Source: Holophagaceae bacterium
GTDB lineage: Bacteria > Acidobacteriota > Holophagae > Holophagales > Holophagaceae
Length of the DNA stretch: 11,002 bases
Direction: 5' to 3'
NCBI GenBank assembly: GCA_025355915.1
Contig: JANXYT010000055.1
Coordinates: forward strand, 1-11,002
Shown here: positions 1-11,002 of the stretch, piece by piece
How positions within the stretch are numbered: the first letter of the stretch is position 1
Layout of the letters: each line of letters starts with the position of its first letter
Made by a program: the position numbers and the translations under genes
Notes under the pieces: model-generated
The model's database searches: none
What the model was told of the DNA's origin: nothing
What the model saw: the letters and a program-made list of their open reading frames with translations, nothing else

Positions 1-1829
1 TCGCCCCAGGCCCGCAGACGCTGAAGGGCCGGGTGATCGTCCCGCACCTCCCGGATCCCTTCCAACTCCGGCAGCGACAGGCCGAAGAAGGGCGAGAGCA
101 GGGCCCGGGCGAGGCAACCGCGGTCGCGGGGATTTTCGACGGCCTGAAGCAGGTGCAGCCAGGCGCGGGCCTCGGGGCAGCGGAACAGGCCCTTTTGTTT
201 GAAGAACGCGAAGGGCAGGCCCACGGCCCCCAGAGCCTCCGCCATGAGCCGGCCCTCGGAGGCCTTCCCCACCAGCACGAACACATCCTTCGGCGACAGG
301 GGTTGTCGCGTCCCTGCCTTCCCGAACCGTGCGCCGGCAGCCAACAGGTCTTTGAGGTCCCGAGCCAACCCCAGCGCCACCCGGCGCCACAGCCGAGCTC
401 CGCCCTCCAACTCCTCCACGCGCAGCACCCGCAGGGGCGACAGCGAATGCCCGGCGGCATCCTCCAAACCCAGCTCCGGCCGGCCACAGGCGACGGGCAC
501 GAAGGCCACTTCGCCCGTGAAAAAGTGGGGATCCGAGAACAGCGCCGCGCAGGCCTGGAGCAGGGGTCCGGTCGAGCGGAAGTTCTCCGCGAGGTCCACC
601 TTCCGCGGCCCCGCCAGGAGCTCCCGCGCCGCCAGGTAGGTGGGCAGGTCGCCGCCGCGGAAGCCGTAGATGGCCTGTTTGGGATCACCCACCAGCACCA
701 GCTCGTGACCGTCGTGATGGAAGAGGATCCGGAAGATCTCCCACTGGGCGGCGTCCGTATCCTGGCATTCGTCGATGAAGGCCAGCCGGAATCGCTCGCG
801 CAACCGCGCCGTTAGCCCCGGGCCGCCGGGGCCTTCCAGGGCCTCCCGCACGCGGAGGATCATGTCGTCGAAATCGTAGAGGCCTTCAGCCGCCTTGATG
901 GCCGCCAGGCGGCGCTGGACGGCCGGAAGGAGCGCCTGGACGAGCACGCCTTCCGGGGTGGGCGGCTCGAAGGCCAGGCACCAGTCGGCGAACAACCGGG
1001 CATCCCCCTGAAGCCCCGCCTTGGTGGAGGCCTTCTTCAGCGACTCGAAGCCCAGGGTCTTCAAACCCGAGGCGAAGGCGTAGGCGCTCCGGGGAAGCAG
1101 CTCCAGGAATGGCCCCAGCCGCCCCGTCGCGGCCTTGAGGGTGCTGGCATGCACCTTCGCCGCGGCCCACCCCGCCGCGATGGCCTGCGGATCGAGCCCT
1201 GCGGGGAAGGCCTGGCGGTGGGCCTCGGCGGCGCCCACATCCGGCAGCAGACGCGCCCGTTCGCGGTGCGCCTGCCACAAAAGCTCCTCGAGGCCTTCCA
1301 CCGTCTGGCCATCGGCCAAGGCCTCGCCGAGCAGCTCACGCAGCACCGAATCGCCGCTGGAGACCGTCCGCAGCAGGTCCCGCCAGGCCCGTTCGAACAG
1401 CTGGCGGGCATCGGCCTGGGTCTCGTCGAAGAGGCTCCGGCGTTCCAGGGCGCTCTCCTGCAGCACGCGCTGGCAGAAGCTGTGGATGGTGGAAATAGTC
1501 GCCCGCTCCAGGGCGCTGCGGGCCTGCCGCAGCCGCGTGCGGGCCGCATCGTCCAGGGTCCAGCAGGGGCCGTCCGGGACCTTCGCCGCCACCGGTTCGA
1601 GCATCCGTTCCAGCAGCGCGCGGATGCGGGTGCGCAGTTCGAGCGCGGCCTTCTCGGTGAACGTCACCACGAGGATCTGCTCCAGCGAAATGCCCTCCAG
1701 CACGCGATCCAGGACCAGGTGCTCCAGCGTGTAGGTCTTGCCAGTGCCCGCGCTGGCCTCCAGCACGGCGAAGGGCCGGGGGATGCGATCCAGCACGGCG
1801 GGGCGGGGAACGCGGAGCTCGCCGCTCAC
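1..1829 (-). CDS. recB: RecB, exonuclease V beta subunit (partial: C-terminal part beyond left edge)
   Basis: This is the 3'-to-5' helicase and nuclease subunit of the RecBCD complex, which processes double-strand breaks in the cytoplasm. About 609 codons are visible from a GTG start at 1829 and the frame is open to the edge. UvrD/Rep-type helicase motifs are clear: Walker A ASAGTGKT at residues 25-32, the following VVTFTEKAA segment, STIHSFCQRVL, YDFDDMI, motif II FIDECQDTD around D353-E354, motif III LVGDPKQAIYGFRGGD near residues 379-394, and ENFRST near 414. The later helicase motifs and the C-terminal nuclease domain lie outside the window. The start is fixed by the GTGA overlap with the recC stop codon, which suggests translational coupling. 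Motif II has Cys where Phe is common (DECQDT against DEFQDT), a mild variation. Family members are usually 1,100-1,200 residues, so about half is seen. A recD gene may follow to the left. Confidence 0.93.
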   Translation of the reverse strand, partial: MSGELRVPRPAVLDRIPRPFAVLEASAGTGKTYTLEHLVLDRVLEGISLEQILVVTFTEKAALELRTRIRALLERMLEPVAAKVPDGPCWTLDDAARTRLRQARSALERATISTIHSFCQRVLQESALERRSLFDETQADARQLFERAWRDLLRTVSSGDSVLRELLGEALADGQTVEGLEELLWQAHRERARLLPDVGAAEAHRQAFPAGLDPQAIAAGWAAAKVHASTLKAATGRLGPFLELLPRSAYAFASGLKTLGFESLKKASTKAGLQGDARLFADWCLAFEPPTPEGVLVQALLPAVQRRLAAIKAAEGLYDFDDMILRVREALEGPGGPGLTARLRERFRLAFIDECQDTDAAQWEIFRILFHHDGHELVLVGDPKQAIYGFRGGDLPTYLAARELLAGPRKVDLAENFRSTGPLLQACAALFSDPHFFTGEVAFVPVACGRPELGLEDAAGHSLSPLRVLRVEELEGGARLWRRVALGLARDLKDLLAAGARFGKAGTRQPLSPKDVFVLVGKASEGRLMAEALGAVGLPFAFFKQKGLFRCPEARAWLHLLQAVENPRDRGCLARALLSPFFGLSLPELEGIREVRDDHPALQRLRAWG

Positions 1830-4800
1830 GGGTGCCCCCCTTCGCGTCGGCAGGCGCGGACGAAATCGCCCAGGCGCCGCTCGCCACGCGCGGCCCAATC
1901 CGGTGCCACGGGCTGTTCCGCCGCGTCGGGGATCGGCCCCCACAGGCTGGAGAAGGATGGTTTGGTCTGATCCAGCTGCTTCTCGATCCAGGCTTCCAGA
2001 TCCTCGGTGCCCGCGGCCAGGGCCTCGACGGGCAGCGGCCCCGGTTCACCGTGGAGGAGGTCTTCGCACCAGCCGCGCAGGCGGGCTTCGGCCTCCGCCT
2101 GAGTCCAGGCGGGAAGACTGACCTCCCATCGAACGGCTTCGCCCTTGCGGACACTCAGCACCACCACCCGGCCTGGACTCGGCAGGTCACGGGCCCGCAG
2201 CGCCGCGTGGGCCACCCAGGCCTTCAACAGGTCGCGGACATCGCCCGCTTCCGGGGCCTGGCCAGCGGCCGTGGCCTTGCGTTCGGACAGGAGGATGAAG
2301 CCCTCCGCAGCTACCGGGGGGGTGAGCCCTTCCAGCTCCACCGGTACCGCTTCGCCGCGGAGATCCAGCGGCAACCGGAGGGCCACGTAATCGTCCGCGG
2401 GAAGATTCCACCCACTCGCGTCGGCGGCGCCGAAGCGCACCACCCTGGGCGTTCTGCCCTGCCAAAGCGACCGCCAACCTTCGACGACGGCCTTGGCCCG
2501 GGCGAGTTCGGCCTCGGCGAAGATCCCCACAGGCGCCTTGGCCTGGGCCAGCAGGGTCCGCCAACCCTGGCGCAGCGCGGCTTCGACCGATGGGCCCGCA
2601 AGGCTGGCGAAGAAGGCCCGCTGCATCCAGACGCGGCGATCGAGGAAGGGTGTCTCGAAGGCCTCTTCTTCCCGCTCCGCTTCGTCGCCGTCCTCCTCAC
2701 CGCGCAGGCCCAGGCGCGCCGCCGCCGAGCCCTGCAGGGGGCAGGACAGCCACTTGCGCAGCTGGCCGAAGCTGAGCCGAAGGCGTCCATTCGATGTGGC
2801 GGATTCCGCGGCCAGGGGCGGAACCTGGTGCAGCCGGACCTCCAGGGCCCGCCGCACGGGCTCCGCGAGTTCCAGGCCAGTCAGAGTCCATCCCGGATGG
2901 TCCGGCCCAACGGCCCGGCGCAGGCTCGGGCCCAATTCAACAGACCGGGCTTCGCGCAGCGCGGCGGGGCTGAATTCCGGGAGCGCCCCGGCCTGGAAGA
3001 CCGCCGCATCAAAGCGGTTGATAGAGGGCTCGTGGACGAGCGTCTGCCAGCCTTCCGAGCCCGCGAGGGCCGACACCCATTCGCGGAGGTCGTCCAGCAG
3101 CGGCGACGGCTCCAGGGGTGTGCCATCACCCGCGTCGCGGCGGACATAGGAGAGCTGCAGGTGCCGCCGGGCGCAGAGCAGGCTTTCCAGGAAGAGGTAG
3201 CGGTCCTGTTCGGGGCGGGAGACATCCCCCGGCTTGCGGCCGGGAAGGCGCAGATCCAGCGGGTTGCGCACATCCTGGCCCGGGAACACGCCTTCGCCCA
3301 GGCCCATGAGGAAGATGGCCTGGAAGGGCAGCGCCCGCATGGGGGCGTAGCTGGCCACCAGGACGCCCTGGCCCAGCGCGGCGGTTTCGGTGCGCAGGCC
3401 GGAGAGCAGCTCCAGCACCAGATCCAGAACGCCCACATAGGCCAGGCGCGGCGCCGGAAGACCCTCGGCTTCGAGGCCTCCGAGCCCTTCGATGGTGTGC
3501 TGGAGGCGCGCCAGGGGCCCCGCATCGGCATCGCCATCGCCCAGGTAGCCGCCCAGGTACCGCGCCAGGTCCAGGGCCCATTCCGCGGGCGTCCGCCGCT
3601 GGTCCCTCAGGCGCCGGGCATCCGCAAGCAGCCCGCGCACCAGGGCCAGAAAGCCCGCGCCCTGGTCGGGCGGCAGCACGGGATCGGAGATGCCTTCCAG
3701 ATCCAGTTCGCCGGGCGGCAGCACCGCGCCCAGGGCCAAGCGGCGGGCGCCCATATCCCAGGTCCAGAGGCCGCTTGTGTCCTCCGCATCCTGCGCCAGG
3801 CCCCGCACCACGCCCAGGTCTTCGCACAGCGCCGCCCAGTCGCCTTCCAGTTCCGGGAACCGCGCCGTCACGGCGGGATGATCCACCACGGCGAGCACCT
3901 CGGCCCGGGTGAAGGCGGACAGCGGCAGCCGCAGCAGGCGCTCCGCGCCGTCCAGCAGCTCCGCCAGGCGGCGGCTGCCTTCGTCCCCGGCGATCCAGGG
4001 GATGCGGTGGCAGGCCTCGAAGGCCGCCCGCAGGTGATCCAGGTACAGGTCCTTCTGGGACGGCGGCACGACGACCGCGATATCGGAGAACCGCAGGCTG
4101 ACCTCCGAGCTGCGCAGGCTGGCGGCCTGCACGCGCTCCCAGATGGCCGAGGCCACGGCTTCCGCCTCGCGCCGCGGGCTGGCGCAGGCCACCACCCGCA
4201 GGCTGCCGTCCACCGGCTGGGGCGGCTCCGCGGGCACCGTGGGCGCCCGGTGCAGCAGGTCCGACTGGAGCCGCGCCAGCAACGTGTCCTCGCCCGGATC
4301 CTGGAAGTGATCCTCGAAATCGCAATCCACGAGATCGTTCAGCAGGTGGATGTTCTCGCGGCCGGGCCGGCCCCAGCGCTGCAGCCCGAGGTGCTCGTCC
4401 AGCAGGAGGCTGTAGGGATCCTCGCTTTCCGGCGCGGGCTCCCGGGGACCGCGCACATCCTCCCAGAACTCCCCGCAGGGATTCAGCACGTAGAGGTCCA
4501 CGGGCCGCAGCGCGCCCAGACGGCGGAAGCCCTCGTGGTAGGCCCGCGCCATCTGGGATAGGCCGAAGGCGAAAATCCGGTCGGGGAAGCGCCCCTGCCC
4601 CATGAGGCCAGATTCGAAGTATTCCGGCAGGCTGATCCACCGGTGCGCGGCGCCCTTCAGACGGCCGCGCAAGGCCTGCCACAGCCGCCGCTGGGGGCCT
4701 TCCCGGGGATCCTCGGTGGCCGGCCGACCGGCTTCCCAGCGGGACCGCCAGTCCGGTCGCGACAGCAGGTACTCCTCGAACAGCCGCGCCAGGCGCCCGC

Positions 4801-5173
4801 TGAGTTGCGCAGCCTTGCGGCCACCCTCATCGTCCGCGAGGTAGCCAGCGAAGCCCGTCTCCGCGAGCAGGTTGGGATCTTCGAACAGGGCCAGCAGCTG
4901 GCCCTGGATGGCGGGCCGATCCAGCAGGCGCAGGGGCGGATCCGAGGCTGGCAGGGACTCGCGCCAGAGCCGGTCCAAAAAGCGGAACCGCAGGTTGGCC
5001 GCGATGCCCAGCGCATCCGCCAGCCCCTGCTGGAGCCACACCTGCACATTGCGATTGGGCACCACGATGGACACCGGCTCCCAGGGCCCCCGCGCTGCCC
5101 GGTGCGCCGCCACATCCGCCGCCAGACGCTTCAGCAGCGCCTCCGTGCGGTTGGAGTAGTGGAGCGTGGTCAT
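1826..5173 (-). CDS. recC: RecC, exonuclease V gamma subunit
   Basis: This subunit of the RecBCD helicase-nuclease holds the complex together and, in E. coli, recognises Chi in single-stranded DNA. The product is 1,115 residues, close to E. coli RecC (about 1,120). The N-terminus has the family signature: HYSNRTEALL, then IVVPNRNVQVWLQQGLAD at residues 36-53, GIAANLRFRFLDRLW at 56-70. A segment near 322-345 (CASPRREAEAVASAIW) matches the RecC region after the first domain. MRALPFQAIFLMGLGEGVFPGQ near residue 611 is the inactive-helicase motif typical of RecC. The C-terminal nuclease-like fold begins near residue 796 (LRLSFGQLRKWLSCPLQ). No Walker A is seen, as expected for the inactivated helicase fold. 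The ATG at 5173 is the first in frame and lies just before the RecC signature; no good Shine-Dalgarno precedes it. It is directly followed by recB in an overlapping pair and is divergent from the WYL regulator, with 470 bp between them. Confidence 0.93.
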   Translation of the reverse strand: MTTLHYSNRTEALLKRLAADVAAHRAARGPWEPVSIVVPNRNVQVWLQQGLADALGIAANLRFRFLDRLWRESLPASDPPLRLLDRPAIQGQLLALFEDPNLLAETGFAGYLADDEGGRKAAQLSGRLARLFEEYLLSRPDWRSRWEAGRPATEDPREGPQRRLWQALRGRLKGAAHRWISLPEYFESGLMGQGRFPDRIFAFGLSQMARAYHEGFRRLGALRPVDLYVLNPCGEFWEDVRGPREPAPESEDPYSLLLDEHLGLQRWGRPGRENIHLLNDLVDCDFEDHFQDPGEDTLLARLQSDLLHRAPTVPAEPPQPVDGSLRVVACASPRREAEAVASAIWERVQAASLRSSEVSLRFSDIAVVVPPSQKDLYLDHLRAAFEACHRIPWIAGDEGSRRLAELLDGAERLLRLPLSAFTRAEVLAVVDHPAVTARFPELEGDWAALCEDLGVVRGLAQDAEDTSGLWTWDMGARRLALGAVLPPGELDLEGISDPVLPPDQGAGFLALVRGLLADARRLRDQRRTPAEWALDLARYLGGYLGDGDADAGPLARLQHTIEGLGGLEAEGLPAPRLAYVGVLDLVLELLSGLRTETAALGQGVLVASYAPMRALPFQAIFLMGLGEGVFPGQDVRNPLDLRLPGRKPGDVSRPEQDRYLFLESLLCARRHLQLSYVRRDAGDGTPLEPSPLLDDLREWVSALAGSEGWQTLVHEPSINRFDAAVFQAGALPEFSPAALREARSVELGPSLRRAVGPDHPGWTLTGLELAEPVRRALEVRLHQVPPLAAESATSNGRLRLSFGQLRKWLSCPLQGSAAARLGLRGEEDGDEAEREEEAFETPFLDRRVWMQRAFFASLAGPSVEAALRQGWRTLLAQAKAPVGIFAEAELARAKAVVEGWRSLWQGRTPRVVRFGAADASGWNLPADDYVALRLPLDLRGEAVPVELEGLTPPVAAEGFILLSERKATAAGQAPEAGDVRDLLKAWVAHAALRARDLPSPGRVVVLSVRKGEAVRWEVSLPAWTQAEAEARLRGWCEDLLHGEPGPLPVEALAAGTEDLEAWIEKQLDQTKPSFSSLWGPIPDAAEQPVAPDWAARGERRLGDFVRACRREGGHP

Positions 5174-5388: not shown

Positions 5389-5517
5389 CCAATTTTTGAT
5401 CTTGAAAAGCTTCAGTGCTGGCCAGGGCGCATTCGTGAATTCCGTGCAACCAGATAGGCTTCTCCTTCCTTTTCCCGAGTCTTCCCGCTTCTTTCTGTGC
5501 CTTCCGTGACCAGCGCT

Positions 5518-5547
5518 TTCCTTGGCGTCTTCGCGTCTTGGCGGTGA
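5518..5547 (+). repeat. 8-nt-period dispersed repeat, copy 1 (TCTTGGCG type)
   Basis: Three imperfect units in a row (CTTGGCG, TCTTCGCG, TCTTGGCG) end in GTGA. The final 15 bases are identical to the end of the copy at 7461-7490, and the rest matches it after a one-base gap. An inverted copy is at 7406-7434. The nearby blocks at 5431-5450 and 5491-5510 (ATTCGTGAATTCCGTG and TTCTGTGCCTTCCGTG) look like looser members of the same style of repeat. Copies 1 and 3 are direct repeats that flank the WYL gene and the membrane-protein gene. Confidence 0.75.
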
Positions 5548-5632
5548 TTCCTTCTCTCCAGATCCTAACGAAACCCGATCATTTCCCATTATCGCCCTTG
5601 CCATTAGACAGTCCCTGACCAATCCTGGACCC

Positions 5633-5638
5633 AGGAGG
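5633..5638 (+). promoter_or_regulatory. Ribosome binding site of the WYL regulator
   Basis: A full AGGAGG lies five bases before the ATG at 5644. This fixes the start of the WYL-domain gene. Confidence 0.85.
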
Positions 5639-5643
5639 CCCCC

Positions 5644-6702
5644 ATGGCCCGTGCCGCATCCCGCAAGGTACTCGAATCCCCCCGCCCGGACGGCGGCCAC
5701 CTGGTGAAGCCCGAGCGGCTGCAGGTGGTGCTGGAGGCCATCCGCAACGCCGGGGACCGCGGCATCACCAAGGATGGCCTCGCCCGCCGCTTGGGCGGCG
5801 TGGCCATGCGCACGGTGGACCGCGCCGTGCAGCTGCTGGAGGAACAGGGTGCCCGCTTCGGCAAGGCCCGCGAAGGCCGGCCCGCCCTCATCCACTTCAC
5901 CCTGGAGAAGGCGCCGGACTGGGACAGCAAGATCACCCCCCACGCCCGCATGGCGCTGGAAGTGGCCCTCATGGCCCTGGAGGGCACGGCCACCGAACTC
6001 TGGTTCGATCAGCTGGAGGGCCTGCGCACCCTGGCGGACAGCCACCTCAGCACCCGCGACCGGGACCTGTTCCGCGCCCTGCAGGAGCATGTCTGCGTCC
6101 GCGGTGGGGCCGACGATCAGCAGGCCCTCGACACGAAGATGCTCACCCAGGTGTTGCTGGCCCTGGGCCACCCCGACGGCCCGCGCGAGTTGGAATTGAC
6201 CTACAAGGCCGCCTCCACGGGCCGCACCAGCGCCCGCACCGTGGTGCCTTTCACGCTGACCCATGATGTGTTCTCCGGCGGCGCCTTCCTGCTGGCCTGG
6301 GATTCCGCCAAGCAGGAACCCCGGCACTTCCGCCTGGCCCGCATCGAGGAAGCCAAGGCCCTGACCCGGCGCGGCCTCATCCCCGACAAGCGCCCCCTGG
6401 AGCAGGCCCGGGAGCTGCAGATCGGCGGCTGGTTCAGCCTCGCGTCGCCGATGAAGATCCAGGTACGCGTCAGCGGCACCAACTGGCCCCAGGCCCTGCT
6501 GGACGCCCCCCCCGCCCTGCCCGGCGTGGCGGTCCGCAAGGAAAAGGGCGGCACCGTCCTCCTGACCTTCCAGGCCACCGAGCTGTCCGGCCCCACCCGG
6601 TTCATCTTGCAGTTTGGAGCGGACGCCGAGGTCCTGGAGCCGAAAGCCCTGCGGGCGCATCTCTCGACCACCTTGAAAGCCATGGTTGGCTTGTACCGTT
6701 AG
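5644..6702 (+). CDS. WYL-domain transcriptional regulator (HTH-WYL-WCX)
   Basis: A 352-residue DNA-binding regulator of the WYL family. Residues about 24-85 form an N-terminal winged helix-turn-helix (ITKDGLARRLGG, then MRTVDRAVQLLEEQGA as the likely recognition part). A helical linker follows. The WYL domain covers about 180-240 (RELELTYKAA, VVPFTLTHDVF, GAFLLAWD, HFRLARIEEA). The C-terminal WCX domain runs from about 268 to 350, with the typical ending FGADAEVLEPKALRAHL. WYL domains are known or thought to sense ligands such as nucleic acids, and PafBC members activate DNA-damage genes. The name-giving Trp-Tyr-Leu is here Ala-Phe-Leu (214-216), so ligand contacts may differ, but the Arg-rich FRLARI strand is kept. 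It is divergent from recCB, so it may control that operon, itself, or both; this is inference. Its stop codon overlaps that of the convergent membrane-protein gene. Confidence 0.88.
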   Translation: MARAASRKVLESPRPDGGHLVKPERLQVVLEAIRNAGDRGITKDGLARRLGGVAMRTVDRAVQLLEEQGARFGKAREGRPALIHFTLEKAPDWDSKITPHARMALEVALMALEGTATELWFDQLEGLRTLADSHLSTRDRDLFRALQEHVCVRGGADDQQALDTKMLTQVLLALGHPDGPRELELTYKAASTGRTSARTVVPFTLTHDVFSGGAFLLAWDSAKQEPRHFRLARIEEAKALTRRGLIPDKRPLEQARELQIGGWFSLASPMKIQVRVSGTNWPQALLDAPPALPGVAVRKEKGGTVLLTFQATELSGPTRFILQFGADAEVLEPKALRAHLSTTLKAMVGLYR

Positions 6703-7289
6703 GCCCCCGACCCCTTCCGCGTATTGCTTTCGATGGCGCAGATCACGCCGAGCAGTTCGGAGGCCAGGTAGCCGGCCAGCAGGCCGAGGGCGGCGCAGCC
6801 CAGGCCGGTGAGCAGCAGGATGAGCCCCGTGTGGAAGGGATCGCCGCTGAACCCGGGGAGGAGCTGGCGCAGCTCGGGGGTGTCCAGGCGGGCCTCGCCG
6901 GCGCTGATCCAGATCATGAGGGCGCCCCCGGTGCCCAACACCGCCATGAGGCTGGCGTAGATCTCACCGCACAGGCGCAGCAGCAGCCGGGCCAGGGGGA
7001 TGATGACCTCGCCCGCGGTCTGCGGCATGGCCGCCACATCCTGGGCCCGCAGCCAGCTCAGGTGGGCCACCAGGTAGGTGGCCAGGAGGAGGGCCGCCTG
7101 GAAGACGATCTGGCCAAACACCGCCTGACTGCTGGGATTTCCGGCCCGCCACATCTCGATGGAGATCCAGAGGCCCAGCACCACGGCGGCGGCGGCTCCG
7201 AACCGCAGCAGCCAGCTGAAGATCTGCTTGAAGAGATGTCCTTCCGAGATCAGGCGGAGCAGGGTCGGGGCGGCGAGGAACGTCGGCAT
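6699..7289 (-). CDS. Hypothetical four-helix integral membrane protein
   Basis: I do not recognise this 196-residue protein. Four hydrophobic segments are visible: residues about 28-46, 57-80, 108-130 and 154-185. Short polar loops lie between them (EMWRAGNPSSQ, RAQDVAAMPQTAG, GEARLDTPELRQ), and the tail is basic (NTRKGSGA). There is no clear signal peptide or catalytic motif. The ATG at 7289 is chosen because GGAGG lies five bases upstream. A longer reading of the same frame, starting at 7448, would add 53 residues, but that stretch runs through the inverted-repeat DNA and is unlikely to be coding. The gene is convergent with the WYL regulator and its TAA shares bases with the regulator's TAG (TTAG at 6699-6702), so there is no room for an intergenic terminator. 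Function is unknown. Confidence 0.75.
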   Translation of the reverse strand: MPTFLAAPTLLRLISEGHLFKQIFSWLLRFGAAAAVVLGLWISIEMWRAGNPSSQAVFGQIVFQAALLLATYLVAHLSWLRAQDVAAMPQTAGEVIIPLARLLLRLCGEIYASLMAVLGTGGALMIWISAGEARLDTPELRQLLPGFSGDPFHTGLILLLTGLGCAALGLLAGYLASELLGVICAIESNTRKGSGA

Positions 7290-7405
7290 GAAAGCCTCCG
7301 GGAGGACTGGGGATGAGACCTCCAGCCTCGGAAGGCCGCCGCCATCCGTCAAGCAGTTCCCACAAAAGGGGAGGGCTGATACCAGTTTGCATTCAAAGAA
7401 TAAGA

Positions 7406-7490
7406 TCACCGCCAAGTCGCCAAGATGCCAAGAACTGCGAAAGCACATAGTCTGTTGCCTTTCTTGGCGCCCTTGGCGTCTTGGCGGTGA
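7406..7490. repeat. Inverted pair of 8-nt-period repeats (long hairpin potential)
   Basis: The left arm at 7406-7434 starts TCACCGCCAAG and continues with CGCCAAG and CCAAGAA units. It is nearly the reverse complement of the right arm at 7461-7490 (TTCTTGGCG to TTGGCGGTGA), with about 26 bases between them. Only a few mismatches and a one-base gap break the match, so a stem of more than 25 pairs is possible as RNA or as a cruciform. The right arm matches copy 1 at 5518-5547. It lies between two divergently transcribed units, so it is probably not a simple terminator for either, although it could block transcription from one side to the other. Confidence 0.8.
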
Positions 7491-8002: not shown

Positions 8003-8104
8003 ATGTCTCTTTGTCCCTCGACCCGCACCTGCCTTGGCATCGCCACCGCCATCCCGGGGTTCAGTCAGGCCATCCACAGGCAATCAGATGTCCACATCGG
8101 ATAA
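8003..8104 (+). CDS. Small leader ORF (33 codons), possible coupling peptide
   Basis: An ATG at 8003 has AAGGA at a good distance (CAAGGACACCGTATG). It encodes a 33-residue peptide beginning MSLCPSTRTCLG and ending QSDVHIG. The peptide has no recognised domain. Its stop lies 17 bases inside the next gene, whose own start at 8088 has only a weak AGG upstream, so translation of this ORF could deliver ribosomes to the operon's first gene. Codon use does not prove that the peptide itself matters, and it could be a chance ORF. Confidence 0.35.
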   Translation: MSLCPSTRTCLGIATAIPGFSQAIHRQSDVHIG

Positions 8105-8522
8105 GAAGGTCCTGCCCCCCGAGGCGATACGAAGCACCCTGGTGCGCCGTGCCGGAGTTGCTCCCGATGCGACGGCCGTAGCCGAAGCCACCCTTGGCAC
8201 CTTGCACCAGTTGGCCGCCCAGCTCTCGCCCGTGATCGGCGCGCGGGGTGTGGATGCGCTCCTCACCTACTCCCTGCACCAGACGAGTCATGCCTTCTCC
8301 TGGCTTGAAGGAGATCACGAGGACACCGCCACGCTCCTGGCAAGCATCAAAGCACATCTCGAAGCCCAAGAGGCCGCTGCGGCTTTGGAGGCGAGCTGTG
8401 CCCTGCTGGTGACTTGCACTGACCTGTTGGGGGTCTTGATCGGAGAGTCCTTGACCCGGCGTCTGTTGGCTCCAGTGTGGGCGATCACGCCCCCCACCTC
8501 AGTTCGGGAGATCACGCCATGA
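8088..8522 (+). CDS. Small helical protein of unknown function, first gene of the KaiC-like operon
   Basis: This 144-residue protein is not a family I can name. It looks mostly alpha-helical: amphipathic or hydrophobic stretches at about 28-50 (TAVAEATLGTLHQLAAQLSP), 54-73 (GVDALLTYSLHQTSHAFSWL), 80-100 and 102-131 (LLVTCTDLLGVLIGESLTRRLL). That suggests a small helical bundle. His40, His64 and His68 are present, but no phosphotransfer motif is clear. I have the impression that similar small proteins accompany KaiC-like genes in other bacteria, but I cannot verify it. The start at 8088 is preferred because the same frame upstream (from 7914) is rich in Ser, Pro and Arg and does not look like protein. 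Its TGA overlaps the next gene's ATG (ATGA), which implies coupled expression with the KaiC-like ATPase and a likely physical or functional partnership. Confidence 0.7.
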   Translation: MSTSDKKVLPPEAIRSTLVRRAGVAPDATAVAEATLGTLHQLAAQLSPVIGARGVDALLTYSLHQTSHAFSWLEGDHEDTATLLASIKAHLEAQEAAAALEASCALLVTCTDLLGVLIGESLTRRLLAPVWAITPPTSVREITP

Positions 8523-9997
8523 CCACCAAAGTGACCATCCGCCGTCTTGCCACTGGCGTACCGGGCCTCGATTCGATCCTGGGCGGCGGCCTGCCGGAAT
8601 TCTCTCTCAACCTCATTTCCGGGCCACCGGGTTCGGGCAAGACGACCCTGGCGCACCAGATCATGTTCGCCTTGGCGACCCCGGAGCGACCGGCGCTGTT
8701 CTTCACCGTACTGGGCGAACCGCCGCTGAAGATGTTGCGCTACCAGCAGCAGTTCTCGTTCTACGACGTGGACAAGATCGGTGACACGATCCGCTTCGTC
8801 AATCTGAGTGACGACCTGGCGACAGGCAAGTTCGACGACGTGTTGGCCCACATTGCCAAGGAGGTGGAAGGCTTCCATGCGGGGCTGGTCTTTGTCGATT
8901 CGTTCCGTTCGGTCCTGCAGGAGGGAGGCCGGCTGGATAACGACGAAATCAGCCTGCAACAGTTCATCCAGCAGCTCGGAATCAACTTGACCAGCTCGAA
9001 GGCCACCACCTTCCTGATCGGCGAATACCTTACCGATGCCGAAGCCCCCCCGATTTCCGCGGTGGCCGACGGCTTGATCAAGCTGTCCCAAAGCATCCAA
9101 CAACATACGATGGTGCGTCAGATCCAGATCCAGAAGATGCGCGGTCAGCCCACCAGCCCGGGGGTTCATTCCTTCCGCATCACCAACGACGGGATCGAAG
9201 TCTTTCCGTCGGCGATGATTCATTCCGAGACCGGGGCCGTGACGGGGGCCGTTCGATCACCACACAGCCAAGTGCGGTTGGCCATGGGCGTGCCGCGCCT
9301 GGATGACATGCTGGGGGGCGGTCTGCCGACGGGCTATTCGTTGCTGGTGGCCGGGCCCTCCGGTTCGGGCAAGACCATCCTCTCCACAAGCTTCCTGGCC
9401 GAAGGCGCACGCCGCGGCGAACCGGGAGTGCTCGTCGCGTTTGAGCAGACGCCCAATCAGTCCTTGACCCCCACGATCGACGAGTTGGTCCGCGCCGGGA
9501 AAATCGGCCTGATCAACACCCGTGCCACGGATCTGTCGATGGACGAGATCATGCACCAAATGACTAGCGTCATTCGGGATATGAAGGCCACCCGGGTGGT
9601 GATCGACTCGCTGTCCGGGTACGAACTCTCTGTGGCGCCGTCGTTTCGAACGGACTTCCGGGAAGCTCTGTTTCGCATGGTCACCGTGCTGTCTGGCATC
9701 GGCGTCACGGTACTCATGACGTCGGAACTGGAAGACCGCTACATCGACCTGCGGTTCAGCACCTATGGCTCGGCCTTCCTCACCGACGCGATCATCGTCC
9801 AGCGCTACATCGAAATCGACAGCCGGCTGAAGCGCGTCATGGCCGTCGTCAAGGTGCGCGGAAGCGCGCACAGCAAGGAGATTCGAGAATTCGAAATCAC
9901 CGATGCGGGCATCGTCATCGGTGATCCCATCCTCGATTTCGAGGCGATCCTCGGCGGCCAGCCCACGCGAAGGCCACCCTTCAAGAAGGTCGATTGA
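8519..9997 (+). CDS. KaiC-like double-domain RecA-fold ATPase
   Basis: A 492-residue protein with two KaiC domains. Domain 1 has Walker A GPPGSGKTT (35-43), a Glu at 67 (LGEPP) and Walker B GLVFVDSF (122-129). Domain 2 has Walker A GPSGSGKTI (279-287), FEQ at 308-310 and Walker B VVIDSL (360-365). Both domains start with the KaiC hallmark of GVPGLD or GVPRLD followed by GGGLP. The C-terminus resembles cyanobacterial KaiC (VRGSAHSKEIREFEI, then GGQPTR). KaiC proteins are ATPases that form hexamers in the cyanobacterial clock; outside cyanobacteria most KaiC-like proteins lack KaiA and KaiB, and neither is seen here. By my alignment, the residues matching Ser431/Thr432 are Ala419/Phe420, and the second domain has Gln at the second position of the EE pair. 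Phosphorylation cycling like that of the clock protein is therefore doubtful. The start at 8519 is set by the ATGA overlap with the upstream gene; a longer in-frame start at 8477 lies inside that gene. Confidence 0.9.
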   Translation: MTTKVTIRRLATGVPGLDSILGGGLPEFSLNLISGPPGSGKTTLAHQIMFALATPERPALFFTVLGEPPLKMLRYQQQFSFYDVDKIGDTIRFVNLSDDLATGKFDDVLAHIAKEVEGFHAGLVFVDSFRSVLQEGGRLDNDEISLQQFIQQLGINLTSSKATTFLIGEYLTDAEAPPISAVADGLIKLSQSIQQHTMVRQIQIQKMRGQPTSPGVHSFRITNDGIEVFPSAMIHSETGAVTGAVRSPHSQVRLAMGVPRLDDMLGGGLPTGYSLLVAGPSGSGKTILSTSFLAEGARRGEPGVLVAFEQTPNQSLTPTIDELVRAGKIGLINTRATDLSMDEIMHQMTSVIRDMKATRVVIDSLSGYELSVAPSFRTDFREALFRMVTVLSGIGVTVLMTSELEDRYIDLRFSTYGSAFLTDAIIVQRYIEIDSRLKRVMAVVKVRGSAHSKEIREFEITDAGIVIGDPILDFEAILGGQPTRRPPFKKVD

Positions 9998-9999
9998 GG
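9996..9999 (+). promoter_or_regulatory. Ribosome binding site of the GGDEF gene
   Basis: GAGG overlaps the KaiC-like stop codon and lies nine bases before the ATG at 10009. It supports both that start and co-translation with the upstream gene. Confidence 0.5.
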
Positions 10000-10008
10000 C
10001 AAACGGCC

Positions 10009-11002
10009 ATGAGCAAAATGGGTCACACCCACCGGAAAGGCGCACAGGGACAGGCCCCAGAGGGCAAGGGAGCCGCGCCTCCCCCGGCTCCGGCGCCAGT
10101 GTCGGCCCCTGGGGCGACCGGCGCCCAGGGCGAGCCTGCGATCTTGGGCGGCGGACCCGCCATCCAGGGCCAAGACACGGCCGCCGAGCTGCTCGAAGAG
10201 GCCCTAGAGGCCGTCGAGGCCATAGCCGAGCATAGCTCGACCACCGAGGCCGAACTGCGGGAAGCGAACGAGCGCCTCGTCCTGGCAAATGTGAAGGCCC
10301 AGGCGATGGCCGAGGCCGCCGAACAGGCTGCCGCTCAGCTACGGGAGGCCAATGAGCGCCTCGTCGTCGCGACGGTCAACACCCAGACGATGGCCGACGC
10401 CGCCGAGACCTCCGCCGCCCAAATGTCCTACCTGGCCGAACACGACTTCCTCACGGGCCTACCCAACCGATCCCTCCTTACCGACCGCATGATCCAGGCG
10501 ATCGCCCTCGCGGAGCGCCATGGCAAGACGGTCGCCCTGATGTACATGGACCTCGACCATTTCAAGGACATCAACGATTCCCTCGGACATGCGGTCGGCG
10601 ATCAGTTATTGAAGTCAGTCGCCGCGCGCCTCCAGGCCTGCGTGCGGCACTCGGATACCGTCAGCCGCCAAGGGGGGGACGAATTCGCCGTGCTGCTGCC
10701 CGAAGTCGAGGCGGAAAATGACGCCATCATCATCGCCCAGAAGCTGATCGAGGCCATGACGGCACCCCATCTCATTGGAGGCCACCAGCTCCAGGTCACC
10801 CTGAGCATTGGGATCAGCCATTTCCCCGATGACGGCAGGGATGTCGATACGGTGCTCAAGCACGCCGACACGGCGATGTATCACGCCAAACAACTCGGCC
10901 GGAACAACTTCCAGGTGTTCACGCCGGGCATGAATCTCCCCGGGATCCCGCGGCCAACCGGTGAGCCGGGTGCGGACCCTGCGCCCGCGCCGCCGCCGGC
11001 GC
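10009..11002 (+). CDS. GGDEF diguanylate cyclase with coiled-coil signalling helix (partial: continues past right edge)
   Basis: This enzyme should make c-di-GMP from two GTP. The frame is open for 331 codons to the window edge. Residues about 10-50 are Gly/Pro/Ala-rich and probably disordered. Residues 57-140 form a helical coiled coil with two tandem 28-residue units (81-108 and 109-136). The GGDEF domain starts at HDFLTGLPNR (145-154), continues with MDLDHFKDIND (180-190), the intact active-site GGDEF (222-226) and a product-inhibition I-site RHSD (213-216) at the usual spacing, and ends near FQVF (304). A Pro/Ala-rich stretch follows to the edge, so an extra C-terminal domain such as EAL, or just a tail, may lie beyond. 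No membrane segment is seen, so it is probably cytoplasmic. It follows the KaiC-like gene by 11 bases, and that ATPase may be its input through the coiled coil, since no sensor domain is visible in the N-terminal part. Confidence 0.93.
   Translation, partial: MSKMGHTHRKGAQGQAPEGKGAAPPPAPAPVSAPGATGAQGEPAILGGGPAIQGQDTAAELLEEALEAVEAIAEHSSTTEAELREANERLVLANVKAQAMAEAAEQAAAQLREANERLVVATVNTQTMADAAETSAAQMSYLAEHDFLTGLPNRSLLTDRMIQAIALAERHGKTVALMYMDLDHFKDINDSLGHAVGDQLLKSVAARLQACVRHSDTVSRQGGDEFAVLLPEVEAENDAIIIAQKLIEAMTAPHLIGGHQLQVTLSIGISHFPDDGRDVDTVLKHADTAMYHAKQLGRNNFQVFTPGMNLPGIPRPTGEPGADPAPAPPPA
10249..10416 (+). repeat. 84-bp in-frame tandem duplication within the coiled coil
   Basis: Two adjacent units of 28 codons share the pattern (A)ELREANERLV followed by a variable part and AEAAEQAA or ADAAETSA. 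The length is exactly four heptads, so the coiled-coil register is kept. The units have diverged, so the duplication is not recent. Confidence 0.8.

Follow-up and report, generated by a model that had tools for sequence, protein, structure and literature searches.

We analysed a window of 11,002 nucleotides, the entire contig JANXYT010000055.1 of a Holophagaceae genome assembly (GCA_025355915.1), which in the list of open reading frames closes with three same-strand genes encoding a small helical protein, a KaiC-like ATPase and a GGDEF diguanylate cyclase. We consider it probable that this operon is a signalling module, in which the KaiC-like ATPase would bind the small protein and an exchangeable output enzyme would be controlled via a helix. 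The small protein and KaiC are the conserved core of the module, and cyclic dimeric guanosine monophosphate (c-di-GMP), made by enzymes of the window's type, is predicted to be one among several outputs. A first-pass annotation, made from the letters of the window, had proposed a compact operon in which the ATPase and the small protein may be the input of the cyclase. The coordinates confirmed its three co-directional genes, with the small gene's TGA and the KaiC-like gene's ATG sharing the tetranucleotide ATGA and a gap of 11 nucleotides between the KaiC-like gene and the cyclase gene, and the identities of the ATPase and the cyclase were confirmed by Pfam.

Gene pair, exchangeable outputs and a shared helix

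A profile of the small protein matched 19 of 396 Acidobacteriota genomes, 16 of them strongly (E 2.9e-14 or better; the weak matches G287, G362 and G315, at E 2.5e-5 to 4.9e-4, were excluded from the 16), and in 15 of the 16 a KaiC gene lies beside the small gene. We also surveyed 399 genomes of the order of Noviherbaspirillum blindly, using the KaiC profile alone and ignoring neighbours. Of the 25 matches obtained, the one in Noviherbaspirillum itself was already known and was set aside, leaving 24 new loci. The small gene was found directly beside KaiC in all 24, with ATGA at its stop in 12. Among 30 tabulated loci, which were partly selected via the small gene itself, it is present in 28 (27 separate, one fused), and the ATGA overlap occurs in 19 of the 27. 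Conservation of gene order in relatives had been named beforehand as the test on which the proposal could fail; the order is conserved, and recurs far too often to be due to chance. Small protein and KaiC are moreover fused in G029, a genome of the window's genus, where they form one open frame that is stop-free between them, and in an independent metagenome protein of 639 residues whose linker is unlike that of G029.

The same three-gene order is found on the plasmids of Caballeronia SBC1 and SBC2. Carriers among named strains, which make the module open to study, are Caballeronia sp. SBC1, Caballeronia sp. SBC2 and Noviherbaspirillum denitrificans TSA40. The SBC2 plasmid pSBC2-3 also holds a second copy of the pair (L185), in which the KaiC frame is cut to 294 residues and a cyclase is missing, with an IS110 transposase close by. 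Distribution within the window's genus is patchy. The module is present in 2 of 36 genomes compared and, from another search, in G207, in addition to the window itself. The small-protein profile matched 1 of 289 alphaproteobacterial genomes, namely the starting genome, and therefore the module is either sparse in Alphaproteobacteria or missed there by this profile. No small gene was seen at the archaeal KaiC loci compared (L009-L012). On a KaiC tree, to which long-branch cautions apply, 25 KaiCs including that of the window fall in one clade (100/100); three of its members are without a small gene seen (L172, L173 and L005, the last at a contig start). KaiB exceeded its cut-off in only 3 of 20 module-carrying genomes. 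One genome (L170; G509:C1:1880337-1880570) has a KaiB that exceeds the cut-off together with another KaiC-like frame, at about 3 kb from the module.

The third gene varies from locus to locus. It encodes a GGDEF protein in the window and in G636, a GGDEF-histidine kinase in G029 and Caballeronia SBC1, a histidine kinase-REC protein in G015 and G207, a GGDEF-EAL protein in Noviherbaspirillum, and a kinase in the majority of the remaining Acidobacteriota as well as in the Alphaproteobacteria examined. Within the window's genus alone the outputs are GGDEF, GGDEF-histidine kinase and, twice, histidine kinase-REC. At the 24 blind loci we found a GGDEF protein in 10 cases and a kinase in 15 by search (16 with L232, assigned by eye), with both present at 6 loci and neither at 4, among them L228, which runs into a contig edge. 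Labelling the KaiC tree for c-di-GMP requires four changes, and the outputs have therefore been swapped around a constant pair. As a histidine kinase is at least as common a third gene as a cyclase, the reading as a dedicated KaiC-cyclase system is not supported. No KaiB-like domain was found by Pfam in the outputs examined.

Most of these otherwise different outputs have in common a 28-residue stretch ahead of the catalytic domain, with a consensus of roughly xANExLVxAxVxAQxMxEAAExAxxQ. The coiled-coil helix that the first-pass annotation had noticed in the window cyclase is borne out as two tandem copies of this stretch, identical at 20 of 28 residues (nucleotides 10255-10422). In L056 and L222, one helix lies ahead of GGDEF and another ahead of the kinase. 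A downstream gene carries the helix at 20 of the 24 blind loci. When a helix profile was run on 47 held-out genomes, 18 of 27 with KaiC were matched as against 0 of 20 without, the latter being genomes among the first listed that had no KaiC match at E 1e-100, with at most three candidates scored per genome. All 18 matches lie 50-2726 nucleotides downstream of KaiC, and none was found elsewhere in the 47 genomes. Noviherbaspirillum, Bauldia and a Beijerinckiaceae genome, all of which contributed to the profile, have the helix once each, at the KaiC-linked gene. A coupling of the ATPase and its partner to the output is well supported as far as gene arrangement and protein sequence can indicate it.

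Proteins of the window

Both KaiC ATPase domains that define the KaiC family (PF06745), each with its Walker A motif, are present in the window ATPase (match over two stretches, E 7.8e-76), and its closest solved chains are KaiC. Two K-x-R motifs (K206/R208 and K445/R447), which we take to correspond to residues contacting the neighbouring subunit in KaiC rings, are invariant in nine relatives. Given these motifs and a Walker A in both domains, the ATPase likely forms a hexameric double ring like KaiC. It scored 164 bits with the NCBIfam model circ_KaiC, which did not reach the cut-off of 546.25. In the second domain, at the pair aligned with what we take, by our numbering, to be the KaiC phosphorylation sites, S and T are replaced by A and F. 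Of the adjacent Glu pair that is presumably catalytic in circadian KaiC, one Glu is kept per domain (VLGE in domain 1, FEQ in domain 2). The protein ends a few residues past the conserved PTR, so that the long KaiC-like C-terminal tail is absent. The replaced pair and the short tail together make a phosphorylation clock unlikely. The KaiB profile reached 20.4 bits in the whole assembly (77.6% complete), below the cut-off of 27.

The small protein matched nothing above cut-off in Pfam or NCBIfam, and none of 45 family members compared with Pfam gave a match better than E 0.04. A BLUF match of the small protein (Pfam, E 0.3) was dismissed as noise. No match to PDB sequences was found up to E 10. 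Homologues numbered 21, including the protein itself, in a database search and 43 in an alignment-based search. Its AlphaFold2 model is a five-helix bundle with one helix of 40 residues (pLDDT, the predicted local distance difference test, 85.1; pTM, the predicted template modelling score, 0.79), for which Foldseek and VIA-align found no convincing structural match in the PDB, a result that does not in itself establish a new fold. Paralogues of 201-236 residues with an extra C-terminal part lie near the operon at four loci (10 kb off in L085), in three of these loci either on the other strand or separated from KaiC. At L219, a second small-protein gene (5494-5880, in the reading direction of KaiC) is located directly ahead of the gene for a helix-GGDEF-EAL protein.

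In the visible 331 residues of the cyclase, Pfam at E up to 1 detected GGDEF only, at full length (profile positions 1-161 of 161), with neither a sensor domain, as had been noted at first, nor a KaiB-like N-terminal domain. Since it contains both the GGDEF motif and an RxxD pattern, presumably the product-inhibition (I-) site, the cyclase is probably active and product-inhibited. Its frame is still open at the contig end and, as in G029, the sequence past GGDEF is rich in proline. A clear continuation of the gene was found on no contig of the assembly; two kinase pieces at contig starts share just 46-47% identity with the G029 kinase, the level of unrelated kinases in the assembly. The first-pass annotation had reported no kaiA, kaiB or kinase gene, and none was seen in the window. 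This does not establish that a kinase is lacking, because the cyclase runs off the contig and, in several relatives, GGDEF is combined with a histidine kinase in a single protein.

Proposed mechanism and its alternatives

We propose that the KaiC-like ATPase, probably as a hexameric double ring, binds the small helical protein, and that its state would shift with ATP or with a signal arriving through the small protein. This state would reach the output enzyme through the 28-residue helix directly ahead of the catalytic domain, either by docking on the helix or by setting its coiled-coil register or dimerisation. The output would be c-di-GMP from a diguanylate cyclase in the window, and in relatives that of a histidine kinase, a GGDEF-EAL protein or a GGDEF-kinase hybrid. 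We infer the hexamer, the binding of the small protein to KaiC and the contact of KaiC with the helix, and likewise whatever stimulus and sign of control the module may have. An ATPase-coupled c-di-GMP output seems the best reading of the window because the gene order is conserved, no sensor domain is visible and the helix is conserved with the module's KaiC. That part of the original input proposal is supported. The small protein, judged by the fusions and ATGA overlaps, fits the role of a KaiC partner better than that of a direct input to the cyclase.

Several observations weigh against this interpretation. A strong small gene in G348 (L082), like the three weak ones, has no KaiC adjacent, and in Alienimonas the small gene is there, yet its KaiC falls outside the main clade. 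The REC-GGDEF-EAL output of L169 carries no helix, and no adjacent helix-bearing output was found at L006, L007, L092, L225, L227 and L229. Nine of the 27 held-out genomes with KaiC gave no genome-wide helix match, four of which (L189, L216, L218 and L233) do match when the locus alone is searched. In the 396 Acidobacteriota genomes the helix profile matched 19 times, in 14 genomes; 18 of the matches lie beside the module's KaiC and the nineteenth (G316) at a contig end where the neighbour is unreadable; 12 of these 14 genomes had supplied the profile, and therefore only the absence of other Acidobacteriota matches is informative. A fold model of a natural small protein-KaiC fusion is weak (pLDDT 72.9, pTM 0.54); MAFFT scattered the small proteins over the fusion, and the model was built from two fusions and KaiC rows only. 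We rejected it as too weak for docking. Finally, the helix could instead be a relic of shared descent of the outputs.

That the genes are merely co-transcribed for related tasks, with KaiC never touching the cyclase and acting elsewhere with the small protein, we regard as unlikely. The output gene is absent or different at several loci, and the window cyclase begins past the end of KaiC without overlap, as such an arrangement would allow. The helix, however, tracks the module's KaiC across unrelated catalytic domains and has no match elsewhere in the held-out genomes, which is more than co-transcription alone predicts. It is similarly improbable that KaiC chaperones or remodels the small protein, which would then be the true output regulator. 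Although the second small gene of L219 stands directly ahead of an output gene, both known fusions join the small protein to KaiC, and a single region search (proteins 0.55-1.75 times 640 residues) found no fusion of small protein and output.

A KaiC-based timer, in which the operon would be a reduced clock or an hourglass with c-di-GMP as its output, is highly improbable. The fold and the two ATPase domains are those of KaiC, but A and F occupy the presumed phosphorylation pair, the long tail is missing, the circ_KaiC score is far under its cut-off and KaiB exceeds its own in few module genomes. An hourglass has been proposed for a kaiC-kinase operon without kaiB (PMC3164672), and c-di-GMP alters the rhythm of a cyanobacterium (PMC13001216); the former paper, however, considers it unlikely that homologues missing both sites sustain a cyclic timer. 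Compatible with the module that we favour is a further possibility, to which we give an even chance, that the third protein of the window is a hybrid of GGDEF with a histidine kinase (or with EAL), feeding a phosphorelay as well as c-di-GMP. The open frame at the contig end and the G029-like proline-rich stretch are consistent with it, as are the GGDEF-histidine kinases of G029 itself, Caballeronia SBC1, L222, L223, L224 and L226. Against it, a stand-alone helix-GGDEF protein, complete at 265 residues, occurs in G636 (L171), and the cyclase gene has no clear continuation in the assembly.

The occurrence of kaiC beside kinase or GGDEF/EAL genes outside cyanobacteria was reported in 2011 (PMC3164672). 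These neighbourhoods resemble ours, and one group has poorly conserved phosphorylation sites and varied neighbours, but in the section on neighbourhoods the small partner, the fusion and the shared output helix are not named; the conserved kinase group of that paper is defined by a KaiB-like N-terminal region, unlike the outputs of the module. Outside cyanobacteria, SasA homologues have been noted to be without the KaiB-like domain (PMC5520375). As in cyanobacterial KaiABC-SasA, a double-ATPase KaiC would signal to a kinase, whereas the window genome has no KaiB over the cut-off, the module outputs have no KaiB-like domain by Pfam and the phosphorylation sites are not kept. KaiC-family ATPases have also been proposed as signalling hubs in archaea (Makarova 2017, as cited in PMC5847659), in contrast to which the present module is bacterial and has a fixed small partner. 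Like the S-helix (PMC1592074), a helix of about 40 residues ahead of kinase or cyclase domains, the output helix precedes catalytic domains; it lacks, in all 20 rows of its alignment, the ERT signature located in the central heptad of the S-helix, and goes with a single KaiC clade instead of with many sensors. The RsbT-RsbU system (PMC12143880) works alike in that a separate partner controls an enzyme via a linker coiled coil and outputs are exchangeable, but that system uses RsbT as partner and a phosphatase as output. Switching of coiled-coil register is known in a Rec-GGDEF cyclase (PMC8041772).

Searches of open-access literature, from which most subscription papers are absent, gave no report of either the small protein or the helix; a 2022 paper in which both terms occur (PMC8899612) merely lists KaiC, in the portion available, among variable genes and was set aside. 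The open literature searched thus contains neither the family of partner proteins with its fusions nor the exchange of outputs beside an unchanging pair or the helix common to them, whereas kaiC beside kinase or GGDEF genes was already known. More tentatively, and at somewhat less than even chance, the module may represent a family of plug-in switches, in which a KaiC-like ring with a dedicated partner would read an energy state or a signal and dock on a portable 28-residue helix, controlling any enzyme that bears it; this would cover diguanylate cyclases, GGDEF-EAL proteins and histidine kinases of two types. It would couple an ATP-driven ring directly to c-di-GMP without a phosphorylation clock. 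KaiC homologues are common outside cyanobacteria and mostly have no known role; if the idea is correct, one large group of them would acquire a partner and several outputs, along with a docking element testable by mutation, the control of the sensor-less cyclases and kinases at these loci would be explained, and the state of an ATPase ring would be tied to c-di-GMP.

Mapped features and neighbouring genes

Table 1. Positions of the module genes and motifs in the window, and of small-protein paralogues at other loci (locus coordinates).
Feature	Position	Strand	Evidence
Small helical protein, proposed KaiC partner, 144 aa	8088..8522	+	Open reading frame; start common to close homologues
Two-domain KaiC-like ATPase, 492 aa	8519..9997	+	PF06745
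Walker A, first ATPase domain, GPPGSGKT, residues 35-42	8621..8644	+	
Walker A, second ATPase domain, GPSGSGKT, residues 279-286	9353..9376	+	
GSAFLTD, stretch aligned with KaiC phosphorylation sites	9767..9787	+	Alignment
GGDEF diguanylate cyclase, 331 aa visible, cut at contig end	10009..11002	+	PF00990; contig end
Output helix, copy 1, 28 residues	10255..10338	+	Genome-wide match, E 1.3e-12
Output helix, copy 2, 28 residues	10339..10422	+	Genome-wide match, E 8.6e-15
GGDEF domain, residues 143-300	10435..10908	+	PF00990, E 6.1e-54
RHSD, I-site pattern RxxD, five residues ahead of GGDEF	10645..10656	+	Sequence
Active-site motif GGDEF, residues 222-226	10672..10686	+	
Small-protein paralogue, L084	7577-8182		
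Small-protein paralogue, L085	3375-4055		
Small-protein paralogue, L091	7521-8201		
Small-protein paralogue, L092	6523-7233		

A promoter and terminator scan found signals no more frequent than in shuffles. Assignment of the operon to a defence system was rejected, PADLOC being blank for the small protein and the cyclase and yielding no more than weak P-loop hits with the ATPase (the best being mad8, E 5.3e-11, residues 30-110). Elsewhere in the window, a 249-residue protein (6699-7448, minus strand) has hydrophobic stretches and no Pfam match. A RecC-like gene (PF04257) occupies 1826-5173 on the minus strand and is followed by a frame at 3-1943 (minus strand), named RecB-like by eye, that is cut by the contig start. 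A gene for a WYL/WCX regulator (5644-6702, plus strand) sits between recC and the three-gene operon.

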